58,186 bases of DNA from Myxococcaceae bacterium (GTDB lineage Bacteria; Myxococcota; Myxococcia; Myxococcales; Myxococcaceae), in NCBI GenBank assembly GCA_019694595.1, contig JAIBBQ010000016.1, positions 1 through 58,186 on the forward strand, given 5' to 3'. The translations under genes and the position numbers were made by a program. Shown in pieces: positions 37,101 to 58,038 of the stretch. The notes beneath the pieces are model-generated. The model had not been told where the DNA came from. It saw only the letters and a list, made by a program, of their open reading frames with translations, and did no database searches. Positions within the stretch are counted from its first letter, which is position 1. Every line of letters begins with the position of its first letter.

Positions 37101-40100
37101 CGGTGACGTTCACCGCCGCCGACATCAGCTGCCAGTCGCGCACGGTGGAGATCTGCACCGAGAAGCCGCCGCGGTCCTCCACGGTCACCGGGCGATCGAC
37201 CAGCACCCGATCCTTGCCGGCGACGAGCACCTTGCGCACCACCGGCCGCCCCGCGCGGAACTCCTCGTACACCAGCGGCTGCCCGGCGAAGGCCGAGCCG
37301 ATCGCCAGGTGCAGCACTCCGCCCGCGCTCACCGAGGCGGTCTCGGCGCGGACCAGGAGCGGCAACGCCGGGACCCCCTGCCCCACCACCACCAGCTCGA
37401 AGGAAGCCTCGGCGACCGCGCCCTGGTCGTCCTTGGTGACGTAGCGGATGCGGTACGCGCCGGCAGGGAGAATGGGCAGCGCGAGCGCGCCTTCACCGGC
37501 CGCGTCCGCCGTCACCTCGCCGCGGGCCACCTCGTTGCCATCGGCCCACCCGCGCAAGGTCGCCTCGGGCGCATAGGGCGCCCAGCGCGGCTTCAGCTGA
37601 TCGCCTTCGGTCTGGAGCGTCCGCCGGTCGAAGGGTGAGCGCGGCCCCTGGGCCTCGTCCGACGGGAGCAGCGCTGCCTTCGGCTGCTTGAGCGCCAGCA
37701 CCTTCCAGGCGCCGGGACCGGGCCGCCCGTTGCCGTCGAGGTCGGTGCGCCGCACCTTCACGTGGGCGGCCTGGCCTTCGTGCACGAAGCCTTCCTCGGT
37801 GGTGATCGCCGCCTGCACCGCGACCACGCCCACGTTGAGGCCCTTGCTCGCCGACCGCGTCTCGCCGCCGTCGTCGGTGACGTCGGCCTCGATGGCGTAG
37901 TGGTAGGTGACGTCCTTCGACAGCGCCGGGTCTGCCGCGGGAACGAAGGACAGCGTGAAGGTGCCGTCGGCCCCCAGGCTCGTCACCCCGGCGGCCACCG
38001 TCTGCGCCCGGGCGCTGGGCGGGCTCCAGCCCCACCACGACCACCACCACGGGTACTGGGGCGTGCGCTGCACGCGCCACTTCACGCCGCCCGCGCTCAC
38101 CGGGAGCCCGAAGTAGTACTTGGCGGTGCCCTTCACCGTGACGGCCGCGTTGAGCCGCGCCGCCTTGCCGTCGTCCACCAGCGCGACCTCGAAGGTGGGC
38201 CGCTTGTACTCCTCGACCTGGATGCCGCTCGTCCCCCCGCCGGCGCGCACCTGCCAGCGCCCCAGCAGCCGCCCCCGGGGAATGGTGAACTCACCCGCCG
38301 CCGAGCCGAAGCCGTTGGTCCTGGTGGAGACGGTCTGCACCACCTGCCAGTTGGGATCGAGGAGCTCGACCACCAGCGGCAGCTGGGCGAGCGCGTTGAA
38401 GTTCGTCCGCTCCGCGTTGCCCTGGTACGGCACCGCCTTCCAGAACACCTTCTGCTCCGGCCGGTAGACGCTGCGGTCGGTGAACACCAGCGCGGCCCGC
38501 GGCGCGTTCGAGGTGCCCTTGTAGAACGAGACGCCCTGCAGCTCGGCGGCCTCGCTCTCGCCGCTCCGGGCGATCAGGTACATCTGGCCGTTGTTCGGCT
38601 TCACGGGCCCCTCGAAGCGCACCAGGCCGTCGGCGCCCGTCTTCTTCGTCTCCACCAGCGTGCCCTTGGCGTCGTAGCGGAAGCTCCACAGCTGCACGTC
38701 GACGCCCGGCAGCGGCGCCCCGCTGTCACCCTTGCGCACCTCCGCCTGCACCGCGCCCTCGAGGTGGCGGGTCATCATGGTGATGTCGGAGACCACCAGG
38801 TTGACGCCGGTGAGCCGGTTCGCAGTGTCGGCGAAGTCGGCCCGCGCCGAGGCCACCACCATGTACAGGCCCGGCCCCTTCACCGGAGGGATGACGTACG
38901 TCACGTGCGACTGCAGGTCGGGCGTGGCGGGCAGCTTCACCGACCACTGCGCTGCGGGCGAGGCCGACCCCTGCACGAGCCGCCGCATCTCTTCGCCCGA
39001 CGGCAGCAGCTGCTCGTTGTTGGGGCGCTTGGCACGGTCCGCGAACGTGGTCCGGTACGCGCGGAAGTACAGCGTCTCCAGGTTGCGCGACGTCACCTGT
39101 ACCGAGCGGCGCCCGACACCGTCGAGCTCCATGCCCGCGAGCTGGTAGTCGGGCCCGGTGAGCGAGGCGATGAGGGACTGGCACCGCTGCGCCCCAGGGC
39201 TCCTCGGGTACGCCTCGACGCCGAGCTTCGCGGCGGCGACCGCGGCCACCGGGTCACCTTCGCCGTTCAGCCATTCGGCGAGGTGCGCCTGGCCCATCGA
39301 CCACCAGGCCACCTGGCGGAACCCTGGGAGAAACGCTTCCAGCGCCAGGCGGATCCGCTTCTGCTCCGCGGCGCTGGTGAAGTGCCGGCGGAGCAGCTCC
39401 AGCCGGGCGAGGCGCGCCTCGAGCACCGACTCGGGCGAGCCCTTGCTCTGCCGCCAGGCTTCGAGGTCGTCGAGCACCGCCACCGCGCGGGCGAGCGGGT
39501 GCCCGCCCTCGGTGAGCACCGCCTTGGGCTGCCCCGGCTTCATCAGCGCGTCGAGCTCGAGCCGGAACACCTCGTTCGACTGCTCGGGGGTCCACGCGCC
39601 CGAGTCGGCGAGCGCCTCGGCGTAGAGGTAGCTCACCGCGTCGCGCACCGTGTCGCGCAGGCCCTTGGGGTACGTGTTGGGGCTCACCGCGCGCGCGAGC
39701 ACGCCGAGCGGCTTGTCGCCCAGCTCCTCGCGCTTGGCGAAGACGCCGGCGAAGGCCTTGAACGCCTCGGCCTCGATCTGCTCCGCGGTCCAGGCCTTGA
39801 GGTCGACCGGCCCCTTGGCGTCGATGCGCTCGCGCTGGTTGATCTCCCAGCGGCAGGAGTTGACGTACTGGCGCAGCGTGCCGCCGAAGTAGAGCCCGAC
39901 CACCGAGGCACCGGTGACGCCCTTGGGCCACGGGCGCTCCTGGAAGATCCGCACCGCCTTCTCGGCGCCCCCGACGCCGGCGCGCAGGCGGACGAACTCG
40001 ATCAGCGCCCGGGCGTGCTCGTCCTCGTCGCTGCCCTTCTGGGCGGCGTCGAGGCGCTTCTCGACGGCCTGGGCGGCCGACTCGAGCTTCTGGTCCTTCT

Positions 40101-40170
40101 GGAGCTGCTCGATCTGCTGCCAGGTTGGCAGCTGGGCGACCACCGCGAGGGCGACGAGGGGAGCGAACAT
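34183..40170 (-). CDS. alpha-2-macroglobulin family protein, 1995 residues
   Basis: Signal peptide MFAPLVALAVVAQLPT, then macroglobulin-type beta domains from ~350. The MG2-like block (GVDVQLWSFRYDAKG, TGADGLVRFEGP) is followed by a Pro/Ala-rich stretch at ~1145-1215, in the place of the protease-baiting segment. The MG7-type block lies before the thioester motif: YECSEQT carries Cys1456 and Gln1459, so the reactive thioester can form. The end shows a TED alpha-barrel and a C-terminal receptor-like beta domain. Bacterial members trap proteases of competitors or hosts in the periplasm or at the surface. No pbpC (PBP1C), its usual partner in Gammaproteobacteria, is adjacent. rlmE starts upstream, 45 bp away. 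Confidence 0.93.
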   Translation of the reverse strand: MFAPLVALAVVAQLPTWQQIEQLQKDQKLESAAQAVEKRLDAAQKGSDEDEHARALIEFVRLRAGVGGAEKAVRIFQERPWPKGVTGASVVGLYFGGTLRQYVNSCRWEINQRERIDAKGPVDLKAWTAEQIEAEAFKAFAGVFAKREELGDKPLGVLARAVSPNTYPKGLRDTVRDAVSYLYAEALADSGAWTPEQSNEVFRLELDALMKPGQPKAVLTEGGHPLARAVAVLDDLEAWRQSKGSPESVLEARLARLELLRRHFTSAAEQKRIRLALEAFLPGFRQVAWWSMGQAHLAEWLNGEGDPVAAVAAAKLGVEAYPRSPGAQRCQSLIASLTGPDYQLAGMELDGVGRRSVQVTSRNLETLYFRAYRTTFADRAKRPNNEQLLPSGEEMRRLVQGSASPAAQWSVKLPATPDLQSHVTYVIPPVKGPGLYMVVASARADFADTANRLTGVNLVVSDITMMTRHLEGAVQAEVRKGDSGAPLPGVDVQLWSFRYDAKGTLVETKKTGADGLVRFEGPVKPNNGQMYLIARSGESEAAELQGVSFYKGTSNAPRAALVFTDRSVYRPEQKVFWKAVPYQGNAERTNFNALAQLPLVVELLDPNWQVVQTVSTRTNGFGSAAGEFTIPRGRLLGRWQVRAGGGTSGIQVEEYKRPTFEVALVDDGKAARLNAAVTVKGTAKYYFGLPVSAGGVKWRVQRTPQYPWWWSWWGWSPPSARAQTVAAGVTSLGADGTFTLSFVPAADPALSKDVTYHYAIEADVTDDGGETRSASKGLNVGVVAVQAAITTEEGFVHEGQAAHVKVRRTDLDGNGRPGPGAWKVLALKQPKAALLPSDEAQGPRSPFDRRTLQTEGDQLKPRWAPYAPEATLRGWADGNEVARGEVTADAAGEGALALPILPAGAYRIRYVTKDDQGAVAEASFELVVVGQGVPALPLLVRAETASVSAGGVLHLAIGSAFAGQPLVYEEFRAGRPVVRKVLVAGKDRVLVDRPVTVEDRGGFSVQISTVRDWQLMSAAVNVTVPWDDKALKVEFSTFRDTLRPGAKETFKITVKGEKDRPVAAGAAEVLAYMYDQSLDIFAAHAPPSSLSLYANRMGVPWQSTTFSQTSPLWLSYNQWYSVPGWPTYSGDRLVFLDPYLMGGLGNRFGAATGGMMALARPAPAPPGAMRAEVADALSAEAPMKKDSAPMAARALSKSAAFEPPAQPTTPSPDGHADAPAVQVRENFAETAFFAPSLTTGADGTATVEFQVPDSVTAWNVWAHALTADLRGGSVKAKSRSVKELMVRPYLPRFLREGDQAQIKVVVNNASTAAKSGELTFQVLDPDTKANVGAELKLSPTGPQAFSVPAGGSTTLTFSLVAPRRVALLLFEVVGKAGDFSDGERRPLPLLPSRMHLAQSRFVTLKDADKRTLTFEDLKKNDDPTRIDEQLVVTVDAQLFTTVLQALPYLMRYPYECSEQTMNRFLSAGIVGSVFRDHPAVASMAKKLAARTTPLETWDAVDPNRKLALEETPWLLDAKGGARPGAEDEWINLLDPRVVKAERESALLKLQKLQTAGGGFPWFPGGYPSQYLTVYLLSGFAKASEFQVEVPRDMIVRAWRYVAAEYRGDLKRCMTIGGCFELVTFINYVASSFPDESWLGGAFTPAERTEMLDYSFTHWRKLAPMSKAQLALTLKRMGRGPDGQLVFDSVMDTAKTTQDEGTFWQAEDRSWLWYRDTIEGHAMALRALTELKPKDERRGGLVQWLLLNKKLNQWKSTRATAEVIYSLVKYMQAEKTLGIREESKVVVGDVTRDLVFLPDEYTGKKNQLVIPGPSIVPATMSSVVVSKGTKGFQFASATWHFSTDTLPKEARGDFFKVTREYFKREKGPGGAVLKPMADGAKLEPGDEVEVQLSLTAKQEAEFVHLRDPRGAGFEPENAVSRYRWDLGVGRYEEYRDSGTNFFFEHLPPGQYTFKYRVRAATAGTFRVGPATVQSMYAPEFTAYSQGHVLAVAPGGK

Positions 40171-44934: not shown

Positions 44935-46251
44935 CTACTGCGGCTGGCAGTAGCCGTACTTCGGCGGCGCGGCGTTGATCTGCACGCACGTCTGCGCCTT
45001 CGGCACCTGGGTGCACCCGGCCGTCATCGCGTCGACGTCGCAGTACGCCCGGCAGATGCCCGACTGCCCGAGCGCCAGGCCGTTGCAGTGCAGCGCCTTC
45101 GCCGGGTTCATCTTGAAGCACGCCGTCGCCGTCGCGCAGGCCGAGTCCTCGTCCTTGTTGTCCGTCGGCGCCGCGCAGTACGACGCGGGCGTCGCGGCCG
45201 AGGAGTCGAAGAAGCAGTACGTGCCGTTCGCGCAGTCCGGCGAACGCACGTCACAGGGCCGCCGGCACGACTGCTGGATCGGGTTGGCGATGCAGATCTC
45301 CGCCGGCTCCGTCGCCGTGGCCGACTTGCAGGCCGTGCCGCCACGCCCACCGCACTTGCACACCCCGTCCTCGGGGTCGCAGCTGGTGCCGCCTTCGCAG
45401 AGCTTCGAGCCGCCGTCGGCCAGCGTGCACTGCTGACCACCCTGGCACTGCGCCGGAGGCCCCAGCGCACAGATCTGGTTCGACGCGCACACCGGGCCGC
45501 CCGGACCACCGCACTTGCACTGGCCGTCGACCGGGTCGCACGTCGTCTGGCCGGGGCAGGTCTTCCCGGCGCACGCGCTGCCGGGCCGGCAGGTCCGCGC
45601 CGTGTCCTGGCAGGCACCACCGTCGGCGCTCGCCCCGCAGCTGCACGCCTCGCCGCTCTGGCACACCGCGCCGTTGCACTTGCAGTACCCGTCAGACGGG
45701 TCGCAGGTCGTCGCCCCGCTGCAGCGCACGCCCGCGCAGAGGTCGTCGACGCAGGTCCGGCCGGCGTCCGCCCCCAGCGAGCAGAACTGCCCCACCATGC
45801 ACGAGCTGCCGCCACAGGCGCACTTGCCGCTCACCGTGTCGCAGGTCTGGTTCTTCGGGCAGGCCACCTGGCGGCAGTCCACCGTCGGCACGCACTCCCG
45901 CGCGTTGGGGTTGCAGACGAAGCCCTTGTCGCAGGCCTTGCCACCCGTGCCGCCGCACTTGCAGACGCCGTCGAAGACGTCGCAGCTGGTGCCGGGCTGG
46001 CCCGAGCAGTCCACCGCCGCGCACTTGCTCGACGTGCAGGTGTTCTTCACCGGGTCGCAGCTGAAGCCGTCGGGGCAGAGCACCCCGCCCCGGCCGCCGC
46101 ACTTGCACACCCCGTCCGACGGATCACACGTCAGCGCGCCGTCGCACTTGATGTTGCGGTCGAGGCAGATGTTCTTCGCCCCGCCACCACACGACGCCAA
46201 CAGCCCCAGCGTGAAGCCCACCGCGCCGACCAACCACAGATTGCGATTCAT
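44935..46251 (-). CDS. Cys-rich repeat lipoprotein
   Basis: 438 residues with lipobox LLASC (Cys21). About eight repeats of ~40 residues carry the core TCDPSDGVCKCGG (variants SCDVFDGVCKCGG, TCDPVDGQCKCGG, SCDPEDGVCKCGG), usually with C-x-[GN]-x2-C before it, reminiscent of EGF- or TIL-like disulfide modules. The last third (~300-438) has a different Cys pattern (CRRPCDVRSPDCANGTYCFF). Last gene of a three-gene surface-protein cluster (52552, 46279, 44935), 27 bp after the polyprotein stop. A surface or predation-related binding role is guessed. Confidence 0.85.
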   Translation of the reverse strand: MNRNLWLVGAVGFTLGLLASCGGGAKNICLDRNIKCDGALTCDPSDGVCKCGGRGGVLCPDGFSCDPVKNTCTSSKCAAVDCSGQPGTSCDVFDGVCKCGGTGGKACDKGFVCNPNARECVPTVDCRQVACPKNQTCDTVSGKCACGGSSCMVGQFCSLGADAGRTCVDDLCAGVRCSGATTCDPSDGYCKCNGAVCQSGEACSCGASADGGACQDTARTCRPGSACAGKTCPGQTTCDPVDGQCKCGGPGGPVCASNQICALGPPAQCQGGQQCTLADGGSKLCEGGTSCDPEDGVCKCGGRGGTACKSATATEPAEICIANPIQQSCRRPCDVRSPDCANGTYCFFDSSAATPASYCAAPTDNKDEDSACATATACFKMNPAKALHCNGLALGQSGICRAYCDVDAMTAGCTQVPKAQTCVQINAAPPKYGYCQPQ

Positions 46252-46278: not shown

Positions 46279-49200
46279 TCAGCGCCCACGACGGCGGCGC
46301 AGCAGCGCGCTCGCCGCCAGCGCGGCCAGGAGCGACGGCCCCAGCGCCAGCGCCGAGCAGCCGCTCTTCGTGTCGGTGTAGTTCTCGCGCACCCGGATCG
46401 CGAGGCCGCGCACGTCGCGCCGCCCCTGCTCGTCTCGTAGCTCCACCAGGAAGCTGTAGACGCCCGGCGCCGCCGTGGTCTGCCCACTCAGCGTGCCGTC
46501 CGCCGCCAGCGTGATGCCCGCGGGCAAGGTCTCGGTCTCCGAGGTCGGCGCACACGCGAACTCGCCCGGGTGCACCACCTGCTTCACGCAGGTCAGCGCG
46601 AAGACGAGGTTCGTCGCTTCCGCCGCCGGGAGGTTGTGGCTCAGGCGCGCCTGGTAGTTGCGGCCCGAGAACGCGTCGGGCAGCGCGGTGGTGGTGATCG
46701 CCACCGCCTCGTCGTACGCGATCTGCAGCAGGTACTGCGCGGTGTCCTCGCTGCCGTTCCCGTCCACCACCTTGAGCGTGAGCACGTACGCGCCCGCCTT
46801 CTTCGGCGTGCCGCGCAGGTAGTCGAGCCCGTTGCCCCCGTCCTCGATCGCCAGGCCCGTGAGCGTGGTCAGGTTCGTCTTGTCGTCGAAGGTGGTGATC
46901 ACCGGCCCCGGCGCATCGGTCGGGCTCTCGGCGAGCTGCTGGAACTTCACCAGGAACCAGTCGTAGCCCGGCTTGCCACCCACCGCCTGCAGCGGCTGCA
47001 GGTAGCTGTGCAGCAGCGAGCCGCGCGCGAGCCCGGTGGTCGCGATGTGCAGCGAGCCCGGCGTCACCACGCTCAGCTCCAGGTCCTTCGCCGCCTTCAC
47101 GCCGGCCGAGTCCTGCACCTCCACCGAGAACATGAAGGTGCCCGACTCCGCCGCCCGGCCCTCGATGGTGCCGTCGGTCGCCAGCCCCAGGCCCGCAGGC
47201 AGGTTCGAGTTCTCCTTCAAGCTCCACACGTACGGAGGCTTGCCGCCCACCGCCACCAGGCCCGCCTCGTAGGCGCGCGAGAACTCAGCGGCCGGCAGCT
47301 CCTGATCGACGATCGCCAGCGGCAGGTTCGCCACCGCCACCTGCAGCGAGAGCGCCTGCGTCTTCTCCGCGCCCGCGCTCGAGACCTTCACCTCGAACGA
47401 GTACGCCCCCGCCTTCGCCGGGTTGCCGGCCAGGTCGCCCTGCGCCGACAGCGCCATGCCCTGCGGCAACGCGCCGCCCGACAGCGTCCACGCGTAGCTG
47501 CCGTCGCCGCCGAGCGCCTGCAGCCGCAGACCGTACGGCGAGTACTGCGCCGCGCCCGGCAGGCTGGTGGTGGCGATGGTCAGCGCCCCGCTGCTGATCA
47601 CGATCGGCTGCGCCGCGGTGGCGCAGTTGTTCACCCGGCTGATCTCGTCGATGCCGAACTGCGGCATCGCCATGGGGTCGTAGTTCACGCACACGCCCAG
47701 CCAGTACTTGCCCGCTCCCAGGCTCGACGGGAGCGTCATGCTGTCGGTCATGGTGTCGGTCTGGTTCGACGTCAGGCCACCGGCCACCGAGCCCACGAAG
47801 ATGCTGGGGTCGCTGATCGTCGCCACCGAGTTGTCGGAGATGACCCACGTGTACTTGAAGGCCGCCGCCGCCGCGTTGCCGCCGTTGAGCAGCGTGCGCG
47901 CCGGCATGATGGTGCCGCCCGGAGTGCCCGTCGCCGGCGAGGTGATCGACGCCACCGACAGGTCCGCCGTCGGCGATCCCACCTGGAACTTGAACGGCGT
48001 GCCCACGTTGTTGGTCTCGTCCGACTCCAGCACGGTGCCGTCGGGGTCCACCTTGGCGATCAGGAAGTAGTTGCCCGGCGTGGTGTTCGCCGGGATCGGC
48101 GCCCCCGAGGTGACCAGCACGTCTTCCACCGTGCCGAGCTCCACCGGCATCGCATCGCCGATCTTCACGTCGGCCCCGTCCAGCGTGGCGTCCGTCGACA
48201 GGAAGAAGCGCACCACGACGTTCGACGCGCTCCGGCCACCGCGGTTGCGCAGCAGCGCGGACGCCCGGTACGTCACGCCCGCGTAGCCCGTCTGGTCGCC
48301 GGTCACGCTCGCCAGCGCCGCGTCAGGCGGCAGGTAGAAGTCGATCACCGAGTTGGTGGGGAAGCTGCCCGTGGTGCAGGCACCCGAGGTGGTGGTGGTG
48401 CACGAGAGCGCCGCGATGCCCGTGTTCGGCACCTTCTGGATGCCGACCGACGCGCTGCCGGTGCCCGGCGCCGTCGGGCCGTACGCGAAGCGAATCTGGT
48501 TGGTGCCTTCGTACAGCACCGCCTGGAAGCTGAAGCGCGCCGCCGTGCTCGACGGCGTCACGTTGCCCCACTCGATCACCGCGTACCGCCGCGGCGCCAC
48601 GTCGAACGTCTGGTACTTCACCGTGCAGGTCGGCGCGGTGCAGGAGATGAACGAGTCCCACCACGGCGCGATCAGCGTCTGCGGGTAGAAGGTCGAGGTG
48701 CTGCTGTTCGGAATGCCCTGGTTGCTCGAGTAGGTCGCCGACCCCGAGAACGACAGGTAGCCGTAGTGCGAGATGGCCACCGAGTTGGTCGTCGTGCCGT
48801 AGAAGGTGAAGTTGAACGGCAGGGTCACCGTCTGACCGTTGGTCACCGCCGTGCCCGCCGCCAGCGGGCGGAAGGTCAGCGGCTTGGGGCCGTCGAGCGA
48901 GTAGTCCTGCGCCGACGCCGTGCCCGCCACCAGCAGCGCGATGGCCGCGGGCGCCAGCAGCGCCGCCCGCGCCCGGCGCCGCAGCAGGAGCGGCAGGAGC
49001 CCGGCGAGAATCCACAGCCCACCGAGGTTGCCCGCCGCCGAGCAGCCGCCGGTCTTCACCTCGCGGCGCACGTCGACCGCGAACACGCCCAGGCCGGTCG
49101 CGCCGGAGTCGTCACGCCCTTCGATCACGAAGGTGTAGCTGCCTTCGGACTTGTCGGCCGGCACCAGGCCCTTCACCACGCCCTCGCGGCTCATGGTGAG

Positions 49201-52200
49201 CCCCGGCGGCAGCGAGCCCGAGTAGACCGAGAAGGTCGCCGGGGCGACGCCGGTCGACGAGAAGGAGAAGTTGGCCTCTTCACCCGGGCGGATGACGTCG
49301 GGCAGACCGGTCTGCTTGATCGAGAAGCGCGCCGGGTAGACCCGCACCGTGAACTCCGCGGTGTCGCTGCGCCCCTTGCCGTCGGTCACCGTCAGGCTGA
49401 ACACGAAGGTCCCGGCCTTGGTCGGCTTGCCTTCGAGCAGCGCGAGGCCGCTCTGGAACGAGAGGTTGAGGCCATCGGGCACCGAGCCCGCGGGCACGAA
49501 GCTCACCGGCGCCATCAGCATGGTGCCGTCCATGTTCGCGACCGAGATGTCCGTCTGGTAGCTCGCGCCCACCAGGCCGTCGGGCAGCGAGGGGGTCGAG
49601 AAGACGATCGAACCGGGGGCGACCACGCGCATCGTCAGCTCCTTGCGCGCGCTCGAGCCGAGCGAGTCCTTCACCTCGACCGTCACCTTGCTCGAGCCTT
49701 CGGGCAGGCCGACGCGCGGGTTGCCGGAGATCACCCCGTCGGTCGACAGCGCCAGGTTCTGCGGCAGCGCTCCGTCGACCACGGTCCACACGTACGGCTT
49801 CACGCCGCCCGCGGCGCCGAGGCCGAACTCGTACTTCTGCGCCGCGGAGTTGATGACCGGGGGCACCGAGGTGGTCGTGATCTCGACCTGCGAGGTGGTC
49901 GGCAGCACGCGGAGCACCAGTCGGGCCGCCGCCTGGCGGCCGCCGTTGGTCACCACCGCGGTCACCGTGCTCACCACCGCCGTGGTCGGCGTGCCACTGA
50001 TGAGGCCGTCGTTGGCCATGGTCAACCCCATGGGCAGCGCGCCCTGGGTGGCGTCGATGGCCCAGGTCGAGGCGCCCTGCTCGCCCGCCGCCGCGAGGCG
50101 GAAGGCGTACGGGCGGTCCACCACCGCGTCGGGCAGCTGCGCAGTGCTCACGCGCAGCGAGGAGGCGGCGACTTGCACCGTGTTCGAAGCCAGCGCGTTG
50201 TTGGTCTCGTCGAGCTCCACCACAGCGTCGGCGGTGTCGATGATCGCGCCCAGGTAGTACGTGCCCGGCGCCATGGTGGGCGGCAGCCGCACCAGCTCCG
50301 TCTGAGTGTCCACCGCGCCGACCGCCAGGGTCACCGAGCCGTCGTTCGCGGTCATCGTGCCGGACACGATGGTCAGCGGCACGTCGTCAGGGGTGATGAT
50401 CGCGTTCGCCGAGGCGACGTAGCGGTACTTCACCGCGGGCGCGTCGAGCACGCCGATGTTCTTGAAGGTGCGCAGCACCGGGATCACCTCGCCCACCGCC
50501 GCGCTCGCCGGAGACTCGACCCGCGTCACCACCAGGTCCGCCGCGGGGGCACGCAGGCGCACCGTGCCGCCGACCGACAGGTTGTTGTTGCCTTCGTTGA
50601 GCTCGGTCACCACCCCGCCCACGTCGGCGAGGAAGAAGATGAAGTAGTTGCCGGTCGCGAAGTTCATCGCGTTCCGGTCCTTCAGCGGAATGTTGAAGGT
50701 GAAGTCGTACGTCTGCATCGTGCCGGCCGTCAGCGGCGCCGGGACCGCGTACTGGGCGATCAGCGTGTCGTTGAGCAGCGACAGCGTCTGATCGGAAGAG
50801 ATCACCACGCCGATCTTGAAGTTCTTCGCGTCGGCGCCGCCCGTGTTGGACAGGGACACGCGCGCGCGGCCGAGCTGGCCGAAGTCACCCACACGGGTCG
50901 ACGCGCCGGTCACCGCGTCGACGAAGTCGACCTGGGTGTTGGCGAGGTCCGCCTGGCGAATGGTCACCTTGCTGGTGGAGGCGACCACGTTGTTGGTCTC
51001 GCTCGCCTCGTTGATGGCGTTCGCCGGGTCGACCTGCAGCAGGTAGGAGAAGTCGCCGCCCGGCACGTTGTCCGGCATCACCACCGGCACCATGATGTCC
51101 ACCGTCTCCGCGCCGGTCACGGTGCGCGAGTCGGTGTACAGCACGAAGTCGTTCGAGCTCGCCACGTTGTCGGTCGACAGCAGCACGCGGTAGCCGACCG
51201 TGCCCGCGCTGTTGGTGCCCTGGTTGAAGAAGCGGATGCCGAGGTTGATCGAGTTGCCCGGGCCCGAGTTCGCCGGGCCGGTCACCGACGTCGCCACCAG
51301 GTCGAGGCCGTTGACGAAGTAGTTCAGCGTCGAGCCGACGTTGTTGGTCTCCAGCGCCTCCGCCACCGCGTTGGTGGTGTCCGCCTCGACCAGCACGAAG
51401 TACTGGCCCGGCCCCGGGGGCGTCGTGGTGGCCGCGTTGCCGCTCGTGGTGAGCTCCGCGCCCATGCCGGCCACCGAGATGGCCGAGCCCGACGTGTAGA
51501 TGAGCACGTCGCTCGCGTCCTTCAGCTTGTCCTTCGAGAGGTACGCCTTCCAGAAGAAGTTGTTCGCCGGCATCTGGCCGAAGTTCTTGAAGGTCGGCGC
51601 GACGGTCAGCGAGAGGTTCGTGTCGCCCAGCACCACCAGGTTCGACACGTTCACCGCGGTGACCACCAGGTCCGGCTGCACCGGCTGGCCGACCGTCACC
51701 AGGGTGTCGGTGGGGAAGTTGGTCGACTGGCAGGCGTTGCTCGTCGCCGAGCAGGTGAGGATCGCCGCGCCGTTGGCGCCGGTCGAGTCCTCGAAGCCCA
51801 CGGTCACGCCGCTGGTGGTGGAGCTGATCGAGGTGATCGGCCCGTAGTGGACCTGGAAGAGGCCAGACGCGGTGAGCTTCACCTTCACCGTGTACGCGTA
51901 GTACCCGGAGTACTTGTACCAACCCGACCACTCGATCTCCATCTCACCCGAGCCCTGCTTGTAGTGGATCGAGCCGGGCACCGGCGTGGTGGTGGGCGGG
52001 TTGGTGGTCCCGAACGGCCAGCTAGTGGGGGCGCCTTCGTGGTCGCCCCACCAGGGCGCGATGACGTTGTGCGGCGTCCGCGTGGTGCTGGGGATCTTCG
52101 AGCCCGAGTAGCAGGCGAACCCGGTGTGGCAGGTCGACGTCGCCGTGGGGTTGGTCTCGAACATCAGGAAGCCGTTCGAGTCCACGTGCACCGACGTGTA

Positions 52201-52425
52201 GTTGGTGCCGTAGTAGTTGAAGGTGAAGCCGAGCGGCAGGTCGATGTAGCCCTCGTCCTCGGGGTCGAAGCTCGAGCTGCGCGCGACCAGCGTGGCGGTC
52301 TGCACCCCGGCGCCGGCGAGCGGCTGGTACGCCAGGGGCGACTGCTGGACCACGTAGTTCTGCGCCAGCGCCGACTGCGCCGCCAGCGCCGCGACCACAC
52401 CGATCATCAAGGACGTCGTCTTCAT
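46279..52425 (-). CDS. tandem surface polyprotein: two CARDB/Ig-like proteins with internal MYXO-CTERM and internal signal peptide
   Basis: 2048 residues from the ATG at 52425 (GGAAGG nine bases upstream). Signal peptide to ~22, an N-terminal beta domain (FTFNYYGTNYTSVHVDSNGFL), CARDB-type repeats (~210-720, each with LVVT...N and a LETNN-type end) and He_PIG-like domains (~760-1100). Then Gly-Cys1128, a hydrophobic helix and RRRARA: a complete MYXO-CTERM. Right after it, ALLAPAAIALLVAGTASA is a full signal-peptide core with cleavage at Ala1172-Gln1173. The second half repeats the order (FTFYGTTTNSVAISHYGYL, CARDB, He_PIG domains) and ends in its own MYXO-CTERM with Cys2023. No stop or good start codon separates the halves. 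Confidence 0.9.
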   Translation of the reverse strand: MKTTSLMIGVVAALAAQSALAQNYVVQQSPLAYQPLAGAGVQTATLVARSSSFDPEDEGYIDLPLGFTFNYYGTNYTSVHVDSNGFLMFETNPTATSTCHTGFACYSGSKIPSTTRTPHNVIAPWWGDHEGAPTSWPFGTTNPPTTTPVPGSIHYKQGSGEMEIEWSGWYKYSGYYAYTVKVKLTASGLFQVHYGPITSISSTTSGVTVGFEDSTGANGAAILTCSATSNACQSTNFPTDTLVTVGQPVQPDLVVTAVNVSNLVVLGDTNLSLTVAPTFKNFGQMPANNFFWKAYLSKDKLKDASDVLIYTSGSAISVAGMGAELTTSGNAATTTPPGPGQYFVLVEADTTNAVAEALETNNVGSTLNYFVNGLDLVATSVTGPANSGPGNSINLGIRFFNQGTNSAGTVGYRVLLSTDNVASSNDFVLYTDSRTVTGAETVDIMVPVVMPDNVPGGDFSYLLQVDPANAINEASETNNVVASTSKVTIRQADLANTQVDFVDAVTGASTRVGDFGQLGRARVSLSNTGGADAKNFKIGVVISSDQTLSLLNDTLIAQYAVPAPLTAGTMQTYDFTFNIPLKDRNAMNFATGNYFIFFLADVGGVVTELNEGNNNLSVGGTVRLRAPAADLVVTRVESPASAAVGEVIPVLRTFKNIGVLDAPAVKYRYVASANAIITPDDVPLTIVSGTMTANDGSVTLAVGAVDTQTELVRLPPTMAPGTYYLGAIIDTADAVVELDETNNALASNTVQVAASSLRVSTAQLPDAVVDRPYAFRLAAAGEQGASTWAIDATQGALPMGLTMANDGLISGTPTTAVVSTVTAVVTNGGRQAAARLVLRVLPTTSQVEITTTSVPPVINSAAQKYEFGLGAAGGVKPYVWTVVDGALPQNLALSTDGVISGNPRVGLPEGSSKVTVEVKDSLGSSARKELTMRVVAPGSIVFSTPSLPDGLVGASYQTDISVANMDGTMLMAPVSFVPAGSVPDGLNLSFQSGLALLEGKPTKAGTFVFSLTVTDGKGRSDTAEFTVRVYPARFSIKQTGLPDVIRPGEEANFSFSSTGVAPATFSVYSGSLPPGLTMSREGVVKGLVPADKSEGSYTFVIEGRDDSGATGLGVFAVDVRREVKTGGCSAAGNLGGLWILAGLLPLLLRRRARAALLAPAAIALLVAGTASAQDYSLDGPKPLTFRPLAAGTAVTNGQTVTLPFNFTFYGTTTNSVAISHYGYLSFSGSATYSSNQGIPNSSTSTFYPQTLIAPWWDSFISCTAPTCTVKYQTFDVAPRRYAVIEWGNVTPSSTAARFSFQAVLYEGTNQIRFAYGPTAPGTGSASVGIQKVPNTGIAALSCTTTTSGACTTGSFPTNSVIDFYLPPDAALASVTGDQTGYAGVTYRASALLRNRGGRSASNVVVRFFLSTDATLDGADVKIGDAMPVELGTVEDVLVTSGAPIPANTTPGNYFLIAKVDPDGTVLESDETNNVGTPFKFQVGSPTADLSVASITSPATGTPGGTIMPARTLLNGGNAAAAAFKYTWVISDNSVATISDPSIFVGSVAGGLTSNQTDTMTDSMTLPSSLGAGKYWLGVCVNYDPMAMPQFGIDEISRVNNCATAAQPIVISSGALTIATTSLPGAAQYSPYGLRLQALGGDGSYAWTLSGGALPQGMALSAQGDLAGNPAKAGAYSFEVKVSSAGAEKTQALSLQVAVANLPLAIVDQELPAAEFSRAYEAGLVAVGGKPPYVWSLKENSNLPAGLGLATDGTIEGRAAESGTFMFSVEVQDSAGVKAAKDLELSVVTPGSLHIATTGLARGSLLHSYLQPLQAVGGKPGYDWFLVKFQQLAESPTDAPGPVITTFDDKTNLTTLTGLAIEDGGNGLDYLRGTPKKAGAYVLTLKVVDGNGSEDTAQYLLQIAYDEAVAITTTALPDAFSGRNYQARLSHNLPAAEATNLVFALTCVKQVVHPGEFACAPTSETETLPAGITLAADGTLSGQTTAAPGVYSFLVELRDEQGRRDVRGLAIRVRENYTDTKSGCSALALGPSLLAALAASALLRRRRGR

Positions 52426-52465
52426 CTTCATCACCTTCCGAAAAATTCAGTGCCCAACAACGCCA

Positions 52466-52497
52466 CGCGAAGGACCAGCGCTCGCCGGCCCTTCGCG
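52466..52497 (-). terminator. hairpin between vWA lipoprotein and polyprotein genes
   Basis: CGCGAAGG (52466-52473) and CCTTCGCG (52490-52497) give an 8-bp perfect stem with a 16-nt loop, extendable by CCAC/GTGG with one bulge. It sits in the 126-bp spacer and may be a partial terminator or mRNA-processing site that sets the ratio of the two products. No T-run follows. Confidence 0.45.
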
Positions 52498-52551
52498 GTG
52501 GGGTTCGTCATGTCTCGTCGACTGCGGCCCTCTCGTCCCCTTGGCTTCCGA

Positions 52552-55500
52552 TCAGGGGATGCAGGACACGTAATACGTGATCTTCAGCGTGCTGCCCGGG
52601 TCCGGCACGTAGCTCGGCTCGAAGTTCACCGAGTTCGACGCGGCGTCATACGTCCAGATCTTGCCCAGGCCGTTCGGGTCGTCGGTCGGCACCACCTTGC
52701 CGTCGACTTCCACCGAGATCACCTTGCCGCCGCTCAGGTCGGGGTTCGACGTGAGGAAGAAGTTGGTGCGGTAGCCGAACGCGTTCTTGCCGACCTGCTC
52801 CAGCGTCTTCGACCAGTCGGGCGTGCAGATTTCTTCCTTCACGCCGTTGGTCTGGGTGACCGCGAACGGGTAGCGCGGGTCGCTGCCCGGCGAGCCGTCG
52901 TACGTGCAGCCCGACGGCGAGGTCGACAGCGTGCCGCCGATCACGTTGAAGGTGAACTGGCTCGCGCGCTGGGCGCCCTTCACGTTGATCAGCTGGTTCA
53001 GGTAGTAGGCGACCGGCTGCGGCGACTGGTCGGGCGCGTCGGACACCACCACCACCGCGAGCACCGCGTCCTGGCGGATGAAGCCCGCGTTGTCGGTGGT
53101 GATCAGCGGAGCGGTCAGCGCCGCCGCGGCGGGCGCGAGGCCCATCTCGGTCGCGCTGCCGTTGGTGCCGACGTTCACCTTCGCCTTGAACTTGTTCTCC
53201 ACGTCGACCGTGGTCGGCTTGAGGATCTTCTCCGGGTGACCGGTGCCCGAGATCAGGCGGCCGGCTTCCACGTCCATGTCGGTGGTGGTGACGCCGATCT
53301 GGTAGTCGACCTGCGCGGTGTTGGCGTACTTGATGAACGAGGTGAAGTTGCTCGCCAGCGCCTGCTGCTTGTCGGACATCGAGCAGGAGTTGTCGATCAC
53401 CAGGAGGATGTCGGCCTTCGGCTTGGCGTCCTGCTTGAAGACGTCGACGTTGAGACCCAGGGTGTCGCCGGTGCCGCGGAGCGTGACCAGGTAGTCCACC
53501 GCCTGCGAGTTCTGGGTGACGTTGATCAGGAACGCGCCGGTGTCCGCGCCGTAGTTGATCGGGCGGTACCGCAGCGAGAACGTCACCATCGCGGTGGGCA
53601 TCAGCGTCGAGCCCGGCGCGATGCCCGAGGTGTTCACGGGGATGAACTCGGGGCACGCCGAGGTGCCCGGGCAGTTCGGGCCGCCCGCGGGCTCACCCGC
53701 CGGCGCCGCCATCGAGAAGGAGTTCACCTTCACGTTGGTCGAGCACGTGTTGTAGACGGTGAAGGTCCGCACCGAGGAGTTGCAGTCCTTCTGCACCGTG
53801 CCGAAGTTGAGGTCGTCGGGCGCGATCGACAGGCAGCTCTGGGCGATCGACGCGTTGAGCGTCACGTTGCCGACCGGGTTGATCGGGCTCGAGATGCTGA
53901 ACTCCACCTGACCGGTGACGTTCTGCACCGCCGCCGGTACCGTGCCCTGCGGCCACGCGCGCACCGGGACCGAGATGCTCTGGCCGGGCTGGATCTCGAC
54001 GTTGTCCAGCGCGCCCGCGGGCAGCGAGAAGATGGGGTCGGAGCCGGACTTCATGTCCAGGGTCGAGACCAGGCAGATCTCGTTCGACGCCACGCCGTTG
54101 TTCTTGATGCTGAACGAGAGGTCCTTGTAGTCGGGCGGCGTCAGCAGGCCGAAGTTCAAGGACGGCGGCGCGATGGTGTAGTTGCACGGCGGGAGGATGA
54201 CCGCCTCCGCGCGCACGGTGACCTCGTAGGACGCCTCGTCGGCATCATTCGAGTAGATGATCACCTTCCACTCGCGCTGGCCGACGCTCTTGGGCGTCAC
54301 CCGCACCGGCACGTCGAGGATCGCGCGGGTGCCCGCCGCCTCGAGGCCGAGCTGCGGATCGTACGCGCCCTGCCCCGTGGTCGCCGGGGCGTAGGTGCAC
54401 TTGCCGCTGGTGTCGAAGGCGCCGACGCAGAGCTCGGCCGGGTCAGCGCCGCCCACGCCCTGCACCTCGAAGTACGGCGCGCCGTTGCCGGCCTTCCCCA
54501 GGCGGAGGTTCGCCTTCGGGTCCGGCGGCGTCGGGCGGGTGCCGACGTTGGTGATGGTCATCTTGCGCTGCGCGTAGCTCGCAGGCGACGCGTTGGCGAA
54601 GTACGCCACGCGGCCGAAGTTGAGGATCGGCGACGGCTTGACGTCGATGTCCGGGCCACCGCCGTAGCCCTGCAGCGGCGCGTTGCCGTTCATCTGCTTC
54701 GCGAGGTTGGTGACGAAGCTCAGCTGGCTGTTGCGGGGCCCGAGGTTCTTGGGCGTGAACTTGATGGTCACCACCGCGGTCGACGGCACCACGGCGCCGG
54801 TCATGTCGCGGTTCACCTTGCCGTCAGCGCCCTCGATCGAGGCCACGGTCAGCTTGCCGGTGGTGGGCGCGACGACCTCGTAGTCGTTGAGCAGCGGCTT
54901 CAGCATCGAGATGTCGACCTGCTTGCGGCCGAAGTTCGAGAAGGTCAGGTCGAGCGTCTGGCTGAGGCCCGGGGTGATGTACCCGAAGTTCAGCGGCGAC
55001 GGCGCCCAGGTCAGCGCGTTGGTGACGCCGGTGCCGATGAGCTTCACCGTCACGTCGGGGCAGCCGTCGGCCGCGCGCATGGTGACCAGCGCGAGGTAGT
55101 CGGCGGCCTGGGTGGGCGCGAACGTGATGCCGATGGTCTTCTTCTTCCCCGCGGGAATGACGAAGTCGCCCTTCGGGGTCTCGGGGGTGAAGCTGAAGTT
55201 CTTGTCGTCGCCGCGGCTCGAGGTGAAGTTGCCCACGAACGCCGGCGAGTCGATGGGGCGCGCCGAGTTGTCGAAGACGATGGTGCTGTCGCTGTACGTG
55301 TCGCCGACCGCCACCGCGCCGAAGTCCAGCGGGCTCTTGATGTCGCACTCGCCGGAGATCGAGGTGCCCTTCACCTCGACGTTGGCGGTCGCGATCGACG
55401 AGTTGTCCGCGCGGAGGATGAGCTTGGCGTCGTGCTTCACCTGCTTCGCCGTGCTGTCGAAGAGCGAGTCGAAGGTGATGGTGAACTCGGCGGACTCACC

Positions 55501-55851
55501 AGCGCCGAGAGACTTGCCCTCGAGGCCTTCGAAAGTGAAGACCGGGTTGGTCTCCGAGTTGTCGCCGATCTTCACCGCGTCACCACTCTGCTTCTCGAGC
55601 TTGGTGAGGGTCAGGGCGCCAGAGCCAGTGTTCTTCACGCCGAGCTTGAGCGCGGCCTGCTTGCCCATCGCCACCGAACCGAAGTCGTACACCGCGTCCT
55701 GGCCGGTCACGGTGTTGCCCTCGCTCATGTAAACGAGGGTCAGTTCGCCAGTCGCGTTACTAATGGGGCCGCTTCCGCAGCGGCATCCAGCGGCCGACAT
55801 GACCAGTGCGCAGGCGGCGACGGCGAAGCGAAGGGAGACAGGCTTCAGCAT
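52552..55851 (-). CDS. lipoprotein with ASH/HYDIN-like repeats and a von Willebrand A domain
   Basis: 1099 residues, lipobox SAAGC (Cys23). Residues ~45-790 hold several ~100-120 residue ASH/'choice-of-anchor D' Ig-like units (YDFGSVAMGKQAALKLGVKNTGSGALTLTKL, LDFGAVAVGDTYSDSTIVFDNSAR, LNFGYITPGLSQTLDLTFSNFG, LNFGTVQKDCNSSVRTFTVYN). A vWA domain at ~812-1020 has a complete MIDAS (Asp820-x-Ser822-x-Ser824 in DNSCS) and VVVVSDAPDQSP. A Cys-containing end follows. Such proteins commonly bind other surface proteins or matrix. First gene of the surface cluster; divergent from the MutS-like gene over 198 bp. Confidence 0.9.
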   Translation of the reverse strand: MLKPVSLRFAVAACALVMSAAGCRCGSGPISNATGELTLVYMSEGNTVTGQDAVYDFGSVAMGKQAALKLGVKNTGSGALTLTKLEKQSGDAVKIGDNSETNPVFTFEGLEGKSLGAGESAEFTITFDSLFDSTAKQVKHDAKLILRADNSSIATANVEVKGTSISGECDIKSPLDFGAVAVGDTYSDSTIVFDNSARPIDSPAFVGNFTSSRGDDKNFSFTPETPKGDFVIPAGKKKTIGITFAPTQAADYLALVTMRAADGCPDVTVKLIGTGVTNALTWAPSPLNFGYITPGLSQTLDLTFSNFGRKQVDISMLKPLLNDYEVVAPTTGKLTVASIEGADGKVNRDMTGAVVPSTAVVTIKFTPKNLGPRNSQLSFVTNLAKQMNGNAPLQGYGGGPDIDVKPSPILNFGRVAYFANASPASYAQRKMTITNVGTRPTPPDPKANLRLGKAGNGAPYFEVQGVGGADPAELCVGAFDTSGKCTYAPATTGQGAYDPQLGLEAAGTRAILDVPVRVTPKSVGQREWKVIIYSNDADEASYEVTVRAEAVILPPCNYTIAPPSLNFGLLTPPDYKDLSFSIKNNGVASNEICLVSTLDMKSGSDPIFSLPAGALDNVEIQPGQSISVPVRAWPQGTVPAAVQNVTGQVEFSISSPINPVGNVTLNASIAQSCLSIAPDDLNFGTVQKDCNSSVRTFTVYNTCSTNVKVNSFSMAAPAGEPAGGPNCPGTSACPEFIPVNTSGIAPGSTLMPTAMVTFSLRYRPINYGADTGAFLINVTQNSQAVDYLVTLRGTGDTLGLNVDVFKQDAKPKADILLVIDNSCSMSDKQQALASNFTSFIKYANTAQVDYQIGVTTTDMDVEAGRLISGTGHPEKILKPTTVDVENKFKAKVNVGTNGSATEMGLAPAAAALTAPLITTDNAGFIRQDAVLAVVVVSDAPDQSPQPVAYYLNQLINVKGAQRASQFTFNVIGGTLSTSPSGCTYDGSPGSDPRYPFAVTQTNGVKEEICTPDWSKTLEQVGKNAFGYRTNFFLTSNPDLSGGKVISVEVDGKVVPTDDPNGLGKIWTYDAASNSVNFEPSYVPDPGSTLKITYYVSCIP

Positions 55852-56049
55852 GGGGTGTCCTCGTCCAGGGTACGAATGTCGCGGGCAAACGCCTGGCGCG
55901 GCCAACCAGGCAAAAAGCGGGCGCAATGTGCCGATCGCGCCCGGGAAAAGCAAGCGACCACCATCAACTACATGGGACCACCATGTGTGATTGTCGGGCC
56001 TACCAGTGGAAGGTTGCGGCCAGCCCGCCTCAGGTGCGAAGCCTGCGGC

Positions 56050-57843
56050 GTGCAACCGGCTGATCCCAGGTCGCGAATTCAGGCCCGGACCGAGGCGTTG
56101 AAGCAGGTCCTGGAAGCGTTGGACGCCCGCTCGGCGCGCCTGGCGAACGCCCGCCTGGCGGTGTTCCTGATCAGCGCGGCCCTGGCCGTCGGCGCCATCG
56201 CCCGGCTGCTGCCGGCGAGCGCCCTCTCCGCCGCCCTGGTGGGGGGCCTGGGATTCGTCGTGCTGGTGGTCCGGCACGCGCGGGTGGCGGAGGTGCAGGC
56301 GCGCCAGGAAGCCGCCCAGGCGCTCAACGACAAGGCCCGGACGCGGATGATCGGCGGGTGGCGAGGCTTCCCCGCGACCGGCCTCGAGCTCGCGCCGGCG
56401 AACCACCCGTATGCAGTCGACCTCGACGTGGTCGGCCAAGCGTCGCTCTTCGCGCGGCTCGACGACACCCAGACCCGCGGTGGGGAGCGGAGGCTCGCGC
56501 AGCTGTTGCTCGAGCTGGCTCCGGCCCCCGAAGCGTTGGAGCGGCAAGCGGCGGTGCGCGAGCTCGCCCCTCGGCTCGAGGAGCGCCAGCGGCTGCTCGC
56601 CGAGCTGCGCGACGTCGCCAAGGCCAAGCCCGACCCAGAGGCCCTGCTGTCGTGGATCGAATCGGGCACTGCCCTCGAGAAGATCACCTGGGCCTTCCCG
56701 CTCGCGCACCTGCTGCCGCCGATCACGCTGACGCTCCTCGTGCTCACGAGCCTCGAGGTGCTCGCGCCGTGGGCCGCGGCGCCGCTGGTGCTCGCGCAGC
56801 TCGCCATCGTCGGGCTCACCCGCGGGGCGGTGCAGCGCACCTTCGCCCAGCTGATGGCGGGCGAGCAGGACCTCGGGCGCTACGCGCGTGCCTTCAAGGA
56901 GCTCGACGCGTGGAAGGTCGAGTCACCGCGACTCTCCGCACTGCACGGCAGCGTGAGCGCCTCCGGGCCCAAGGTGTCGCAACGCCTCGCGGGCTTCGAT
57001 CGCCTGTTCGGGCTCGCCGCGCTGCGCGCGTCGAAGGAAGTGCACTGGCTCATCAACGTCCTCTTCCTGTGGGACGTGCACTGGTTCGTCCGTCTCGAGA
57101 AGTGGCGGGCGAAGGAGGCCCAGGGCGCGCGCGCCTGGCTCACCGCACTGGCGGAGATCGAAGCGCTCTGCTGCCTCGCCCAGCACGCCTTCGAGCACCC
57201 GGCCGACGCGTGGCCCACGGTGGAGGACGGCGCCTTCGCGCTCGAGCTCGGCGGGCTGCGACACCCGCTCCTCGACGCCGCGGTGGCCAACGACGTCGCC
57301 CTGCCCGGCCCTGGCGAGGCGCTCATCGTCACCGGCTCCAACATGTCGGGGAAGACGACGCTCCTGCGCGCGATGGGGCTGGCGGTGGTGATGGCGCGCG
57401 CCGGGTTGCCGGTCGCCGCGGAGCGGGCGCGGATCCGCGTGCAAGCCGTGGTGACCAGCATGCGGGTGAAGGACTCGCTGGAGCGCGGCGTTTCGTACTT
57501 CTACGCCGAGGTGCAGCGCATCAAGTCGATCCTCGACGTGGCGCAGGGCACCAAGAACGGCACGCTGTTCCTGCTCGACGAGCTCTTCCTGGGGACCAAC
57601 ACCCGCGAGCGGCAGATCGCCTCGCGCGCGCTCCTCGAGCACCTGCTCGCGTCCGGAGCTTCCGGCGCCATCACCACGCACGACCTCGCGCTCACCGAGC
57701 TGCCGGGCGCGAAGATCCGCAACGTCCACCTGCGCGACGAGCTGAAGGACGGGGAGATGACGTTCGACTACCGGCTCCGCGAAGGCGTGGTGCAAGGCTC
57801 GAACGCGCTCGAGATCCTCCGGCGCGCCGGAGTGCCCGTCTAG
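56050..57843 (+). CDS. MutS-like ATPase with membrane segments
   Basis: 597 residues if begun at the GTG at 56050; an upstream ATG at 55971 is possible but gives an unlikely N-terminus. Two hydrophobic segments lie at ~33-75 and two more at ~218-255. The MutS core follows: the clamp-like helical region (~100-390), Walker A TGSNMSGKTT (~427-437), Walker B LFLLDELFLGTNTRERQ, and the ITTHD signature. No MutS mismatch-binding domain I is present. It resembles the uncharacterised MutS-related proteins with membrane segments that occur in some bacteria. A role in membrane-tethered DNA or RNA transactions is inferred; a mismatch-repair role is doubtful. Confidence 0.85.
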   Translation: MQPADPRSRIQARTEALKQVLEALDARSARLANARLAVFLISAALAVGAIARLLPASALSAALVGGLGFVVLVVRHARVAEVQARQEAAQALNDKARTRMIGGWRGFPATGLELAPANHPYAVDLDVVGQASLFARLDDTQTRGGERRLAQLLLELAPAPEALERQAAVRELAPRLEERQRLLAELRDVAKAKPDPEALLSWIESGTALEKITWAFPLAHLLPPITLTLLVLTSLEVLAPWAAAPLVLAQLAIVGLTRGAVQRTFAQLMAGEQDLGRYARAFKELDAWKVESPRLSALHGSVSASGPKVSQRLAGFDRLFGLAALRASKEVHWLINVLFLWDVHWFVRLEKWRAKEAQGARAWLTALAEIEALCCLAQHAFEHPADAWPTVEDGAFALELGGLRHPLLDAAVANDVALPGPGEALIVTGSNMSGKTTLLRAMGLAVVMARAGLPVAAERARIRVQAVVTSMRVKDSLERGVSYFYAEVQRIKSILDVAQGTKNGTLFLLDELFLGTNTRERQIASRALLEHLLASGASGAITTHDLALTELPGAKIRNVHLRDELKDGEMTFDYRLREGVVQGSNALEILRRAGVPV

Positions 57844-58038
57844 GAGCGCGGGACGCGCTTCATTTCGGCGAGCCCCTTCGTTGCTTCTCGGGAATCGGGA
57901 AAAGCTTGCGAATGCGGCGCCCTCTCCCAGTTTCTGAGCGGAACGCCGTGAATGACGCCTTCCCGGTGGGCATGGCCACGTGCAACCCCTGACCCGCGGT
58001 GGCCGCCCGCCAAGTCCCCCGAGGGGAAAGTACTGAGG
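57844..58038. other. spacer between MutS-like gene and tandem repeat
   Basis: No gene is visible here. No clear promoter, terminator hairpin or repeat copy was found. Confidence 0.5.

Follow-up and report, generated by a model that had tools for sequence, protein, structure and literature searches.

The stretch of DNA analysed here, referred to as the window, comprises 58,186 nucleotides of contig JAIBBQ010000016.1 from a bacterium of the Myxococcaceae (assembly GCA_019694595.1), and carries on its reverse strand a single open reading frame (ORF) that encodes two consecutive surface-protein units, which we call U1-U2. The ORF spans positions 46279-52434 (-), with its stop codon at 46279-46281, and encodes 2048-2051 amino acids, starting at a GTG or alternatively at an ATG at 52425; residue numbers are counted from this ATG, following the initial annotation of the locus. 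All of its features lie on the same strand. A predicted N-terminal signal peptide (MKTTSLMIGVVAALAAQSALA, preceding Q22; 52363-52425) leads into mature U1 (residues 22-1127; 49045-52362), in which Pfam matches and alignment place an N-terminal beta domain, CARDB repeats and He_PIG immunoglobulin (Ig)-like domains. U1 ends at an internal MYXO-CTERM consisting of Cys1128 and transmembrane helix 1 (residues 1128-1148; 48982-49044), followed by the arginine cluster RRRAR (residues 1149-1153; 48967-48981), which forms the predicted cytoplasmic tail of the MYXO-CTERM and whose position is that of an n-region for the signal peptide that follows. The h- and c-regions of that signal peptide (AALLAPAAIALLVAGTASA, residues 1154-1172; 48910-48966) end in a site that conforms to the (-3,-1) rule, such that the junction from Cys1128 onward reads CSAAGNLGGLWILAGLLPLLL-RRRAR-AALLAPAAIALLVAGTASA, helix 2 ending in TASA, and then Q1173DYS. 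Mature U2 (residues 1173-2022; 46360-48909) has the same Pfam domain order as U1 and terminates in its own MYXO-CTERM, with Cys2023, a helix and RRRRGR before the stop (46282-46359).

Inspection of the sequence therefore upheld the anatomy proposed in the initial annotation: the frame is open throughout, with no internal stop, the internal MYXO-CTERM runs straight into a signal peptide ending ASA before Q1173, which leads into another complete surface protein. Only the second MYXO-CTERM occupies the extreme C-terminus, as 876 in-frame residues of U2 come after the hinge that contains the first. Together the two units contain six CARDB and seven He_PIG Ig-like domains, and they are paralogous, with 27-31% identity. 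The N-terminal domain of U2 is predicted to form a beta domain (predicted local distance difference test score 84.5, predicted template modelling score 0.85), but a Foldseek search of this model against the PDB gave no match below E 0.5, so its fold offers no functional clue. A Pfam scan of U2 gave no OmpA match.

The internal sorting signal and the internal signal peptide both show the expected sequence layout. Cys1128 is invariant in a 12-sequence alignment, and a helix followed by a basic loop is present in every aligned junction. TIGR03901 is the best NCBIfam match for the internal tail of U1-U2; this model matches 20 of 23 junctions, several internal ones scoring above the curated cut-off, and orthologous junctions reach 29-30 bits. 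The window's internal tail also scores 17.2 bits against TIGR03382 (cut-off 15.85), a threshold it passed solely when the tail was scanned by itself. A basic n-region, a hydrophobic h-region and small residues at -3 and -1 were found in 34/34 junctions. Their median peak hydropathy over 12 residues is 2.48, and just 26 of 1964 control windows within mature domains contained a comparable hydrophobic stretch. The myxosortase gene mrtX is present in the window genome (G000:C265:16770-17447), where it scores 306 bits against NF040593 (curated cut-off 180 bits); all 15 genomes checked have a match, 13 of them above the cut-off (12 of the 14 besides the window genome). Cleavage of MYXO-CTERM by MrtX has been shown by Guo, Haft and Wall, and their report also describes cleavage when a FLAG tag follows the motif, and cleavage in E. 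coli (PMC11980579).

Relatives might carry either two genes or the same fusion, and a search of 98 of them found the fused U1-U2 frame in many genera. Across the order, strong matches were obtained in 31 of 145 genomes, and the class and phylum hold relatives in further families as well. We collected 34 junctions from 32 Myxococcota genomes; at approximately 30-58% identity all are in frame and free of stops, and all retain the Cys, helix 1, the basic cluster, helix 2 and the small-x-small cleavage site at (-3,-1). An acidic residue occurs in the hinge of only three junctions, one in each. Mean pairwise identity is 35% in the hinge, compared with 40-44% in the mature domains, and it is thus the layout of the hinge rather than its sequence that is conserved, as would be expected of a discarded spacer bearing cleavage signals. 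Not one of the genomes examined had U1 and U2 parted by a stop at their junction. Apparent split U1 and U2 genes in three genomes (G016, G039 and G144) were rejected because these loci sit at contig ends, and a single TAG scored as an internal stop in G010 proved to be the terminal stop of the frame. Searches of a plasmid collection returned generic Ig-domain matches only, and a phage collection gave no match.

The neighbouring genes reveal the same kind of junction in a second context. Downstream of U1-U2, separated by 27 bp, lies a gene for a Cys-rich lipoprotein with the lipobox LLASC (LP; 44935-46251 (-)), while the gene upstream (52552-55851 (-)) encodes a lipoprotein that combines choice-of-anchor D repeats with a segment of the metal-ion-dependent adhesion site (MIDAS) type; it is syntenic upstream of U1-U2 in relatives, where the order upstream lipoprotein, U1-U2, LP is preserved. 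LP is a separate gene within the window's family. In genome G058, however, a single ORF of 2534 amino acids (L114:1304-8905) comprises U1, U2 and LP, and its U2-LP join consists of a second internal MYXO-CTERM and, directly after it, a signal peptide with a lipobox (RRRKLAQVTVALAFIATLGTGC, preceding GKK). Genome G164 contains a three-part U1-U2-LP ORF twice (L217, 1926 amino acids, and L218), in which LP again comes after a second internal MYXO-CTERM and a signal peptide with a lipobox; in G060, too, U2 is joined to LP. The lipoboxes at these third-module junctions are TLGTGC (G058), GFASGC (G164) and MVAAGC (G060). Conversely, G062 carries three tandem separate single-unit genes (L113, 3383-11081), all three ending in a MYXO-CTERM and a stop of their own, possibly representing the unfused state of the family. 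Since both LP and the units occur fused and separate, the junction behaves like an alternative to a stop plus a start between envelope-protein genes, and comparison of these loci indicates that operon and polyprotein states interchange. Judged by their CARDB, Ig-like, Cys-rich and MIDAS-type modules, U1, U2, LP and the lipoprotein encoded upstream resemble components of a single adhesin-like assembly at the surface; that its role is adhesion is a guess from these domain types.

Other features of the window were also recorded. From 41784 to approximately 43262 (-) there is a weak match to M6-type metalloproteases (E 0.07) with its own MYXO-CTERM (SGCGTVLLPP...RRRRVSAS); the listed ORF reaches upstream into an unrelated frame, and several relatives have homologues downstream of LP. 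Positions 34183-40170 (-) encode a large bacterial alpha-2-macroglobulin with MG2, A2M and bMG10 domains. Opposite the polyprotein and upstream lipoprotein genes, an antisense frame of 3757 codons is open from 46570 to 57843 (+) and continues stop-free into a genuine MutS-family ATPase gene (approximately 56358-57992). Although its length is striking, GC-rich codon bias is its most likely origin.

A junction profile search of the window genome identified at least seven further junctions from a MYXO-CTERM to a signal peptide, in unrelated proteins. These include a matrixin-family protein (L184, G000:C292), a disintegrin-domain protein (L188, G000:C393), a giant DUF4215 protein with OmpA after it (L189, G000:C335) and a protein with a double MYXO-CTERM (L185, G000:C394), in addition to L183 (G000:C46), L186 (G000:C145) and L187 (G000:C228). 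Approached from the sorting signal, TIGR03901 gave 30 matches in this genome, of which six were identified as clearly internal, and all six precede an in-frame signal peptide, five of them immediately. The sixth (G000:C77) was considered as an exception without a signal peptide, and this was rejected since the lipobox signal ALVLLTAC lies some 80 residues beyond the MYXO-CTERM. When the profile was run on genomes of the phylum, at least 86 full-length, stop-free junctions were recovered in 49 of 189 genomes, these counts being lower bounds at the threshold used. Spot checks found the right type in 7/7 matches, mostly a MYXO-CTERM, a signal peptide and then an OmpA-type protein. Such OmpA-type polyproteins, in which an adhesin-like part, MYXO-CTERM and signal peptide precede an outer-membrane or OmpA part, are found across many families of the phylum (L190-L195, L292, L293 and L295-L298). 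Separately, a single frame in G010:C65 (L198) runs from a MYXO-CTERM into a signal peptide with a lipobox and then an RHS-like module. The distribution of these matches argues that the junction is a general design, in two- and three-protein versions, and not one odd protein. We consider it reasonably likely that Myxococcota regularly use this reusable junction of about 45 residues, with a signal peptide of type I or type II, to make operons for cell-envelope proteins into single ORFs. Myxosortase, together with signal peptidase I or II, would divide each product into two or three proteins, anchored separately and delivered in a fixed ratio.

For U1-U2 itself we hold, with good confidence, that the gene encodes a polyprotein from which signal peptidase and myxosortase would release separately anchored proteins. 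The ORF contains several complete mature proteins and is conserved in that form, and their separation would be proteolytic. A single chain would be translated in the order signal peptide, U1, MYXO-CTERM, signal peptide, U2, MYXO-CTERM. U1 would be exported through Sec until helix 1 of the internal MYXO-CTERM acted as a stop-transfer sequence; the Arg cluster would remain in the cytoplasm, doubling as the MYXO-CTERM tail and as n-region for the signal peptide of U2, whose export helix 2 would permit by re-initiating transfer. Signal peptidase I would then cleave after AxA ahead of U2, and MrtX on the far side of the Cys that ends U1, which is probably lipidated, so that the 44-residue hairpin would be discarded after both cuts. 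With U2 completed at its own C-terminal MYXO-CTERM, the outcome would be two surface proteins, separately anchored, at a fixed ratio of 1:1. Where a relative has a lipobox junction, the same chain may yield a third product, a lipoprotein processed by signal peptidase II. A strong argument that cutting must happen comes from the lipobox and OmpA variants, because neither product could complete its maturation if a hairpin still held it to the inner membrane. The model of a hairpin resolved by myxosortase and signal peptidase, put forward in the initial annotation, fits all of our findings, with both cuts as its predicted steps.

Some observations weigh against the polyprotein reading: both cuts in U1-U2 are deduced from sequence, the window's internal tail scores 16.2-19.4 bits against TIGR03901, just under the curated cut-off of 20, and some homologues have an in-frame ATG or GTG near the Arg cluster, which in those species would allow U2 to be translated also, or mainly, from a start codon of its own within the junction. 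Indeed, at least one in-frame ATG, GTG or TTG lies between the Cys and the position 14 residues before the cut in 29 of 34 junctions. Such a codon is nevertheless lacking in the window's species, whose internal signal peptide has no usable start, and in four others; neither the codon nor its position is conserved, and a Shine-Dalgarno-like sequence precedes very few, which makes this explanation very unlikely. Moreover, U1 has no stop of its own, and therefore the fused chain would be made even given an internal start. The sub-threshold score is relevant to a half-processed product, in which signal peptidase cuts before U2 while the internal MYXO-CTERM is no substrate for myxosortase and the hairpin retains U1 in the inner membrane. 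We regard this as unlikely in view of the invariant Cys and the TIGR03901 matches at most junctions, and the MrtX report describes cleavage of TraA by MrtX even with a C-terminal FLAG extension (PMC11980579).

A further rival holds that no cut occurs at all, the two helices of the hairpin serving as a lasting anchor in the inner membrane that joins U1 and U2 into one tethered protein; the conserved two-helix hairpin with its basic loop fits such a membrane domain as well. Nonetheless, the signal-peptidase site is kept in every one of the 34 junctions, the lipobox Cys at some junctions is sensible only when cut and acylated, the barrel or OmpA protein after the junction in OmpA-type members must exit the inner membrane, and LP exists both fused and separate, so that we judge an uncleaved fusion quite improbable. 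The initial annotation had also offered the alternative that tandem paralogues had recently fused through loss of a stop codon, and had considered a sequencing error. U1 and U2 are paralogous, and single units stand alone in the window genome (L002) and in G062. Against this, the frame is fused in 32 independently assembled genomes, distributed throughout the order and also among further families of the phylum, with no stop at any U1-U2 junction. A recent fusion is refuted because the fused frame is conserved over the order and beyond, leaving this explanation, or an assembly error, a negligible chance. We therefore retain the polyprotein reading, with two cuts by two proteases, as the preferred account of U1-U2.

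Provided that the cuts take place, an entire phylum delivers surface proteins in fixed stoichiometry by means of a compact two-protease module, the annotation of MYXO-CTERM proteins would have to change to allow for internal tails and hidden second proteins, and the need of myxosortase for a free C-terminus would become directly testable. The occurrence of the same module with U2 and LP fused or unfused provides a clean natural comparison of the benefit of fusion over an operon. Polyproteins with built-in cleavage sites are typical of viruses and some eukaryotic precursors and are generally considered exceptional in bacteria. Here, proteins of a kind normally linked with viruses appear to be made by a soil myxobacterium and many of its relatives, their cutting being predicted. 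In the structural polyproteins of eukaryotic viruses, and in FbcH of Bradyrhizobium, the precursor of cytochromes b and c1, signal peptidase likewise cleaves internal signal sequences that come after a stop-transfer helix. However, these have no sorting-enzyme site anchoring the upstream product, whereas each unit of U1-U2 carries a lipid-type anchor signal. The midcut-by-XrtH model (NF033207) denotes, by its name, proteins cut in the middle by an exosortase; this is a different enzyme family, and the model weakly matches 1 of 23 junctions.

A search of the literature available to us found no paper describing Myxococcota polyproteins. The claim in the initial annotation that no described bacterial protein is built in this way was nevertheless too strong, given the internal MYXO-CTERM of MXAN_5598 in Myxococcus xanthus (PMC11980579) and the archaeal protein HVO_0405 (PMC7157517). 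In the 2025 report, rare cases of internal MYXO-CTERM motifs were noted, and MXAN_5598 was described as a possible fusion of two genes in a rare atypical configuration whose N-terminal portion may be processed (PMC11980579); the protein is also listed in an outer-membrane-vesicle proteome (PMC4158809). In two Myxococcus-like genomes (G022 and G048), the gene adjacent to ftsZ, likely the MXAN_5598 orthologue, contains a MYXO-CTERM-to-signal-peptide junction (GRGCSTSG...GRFRR...ARPAVAQ). Another candidate orthologue in G022 (L194) was rejected as it is not adjacent to ftsZ.

U1-U2 resembles the MrtX substrates described in that work (TIGR03901/TIGR03382; PMC11980579) in having an invariant Cys, a helix and an Arg-rich tail that close each unit, together with a signal peptide and mrtX, and differs from them in that its first tail is internal, the Arg cluster continuing into a second signal peptide and protein. 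It shares with MXAN_5598 an internal MYXO-CTERM with a further protein downstream, but the second part of MXAN_5598 is an outer-membrane beta-barrel/OmpA protein, whereas U2 is a paralogue with CARDB and He_PIG domains and a MYXO-CTERM of its own; the portion of the account available to us does not mention a signal peptide at the MXAN_5598 junction (PMC11980579). HVO_0405 of Haloferax volcanii likewise bears a tripartite sorting-type signal in mid-protein, and its central archaeosortase (ArtA) site is cleaved in vivo (PMC7157517). That protein, however, is an archaeal PGF-CTERM/ArtA substrate and is described as a strain-specific domain fusion (PMC7157517), in contrast to U1-U2, in which the fusion is conserved across many genera.

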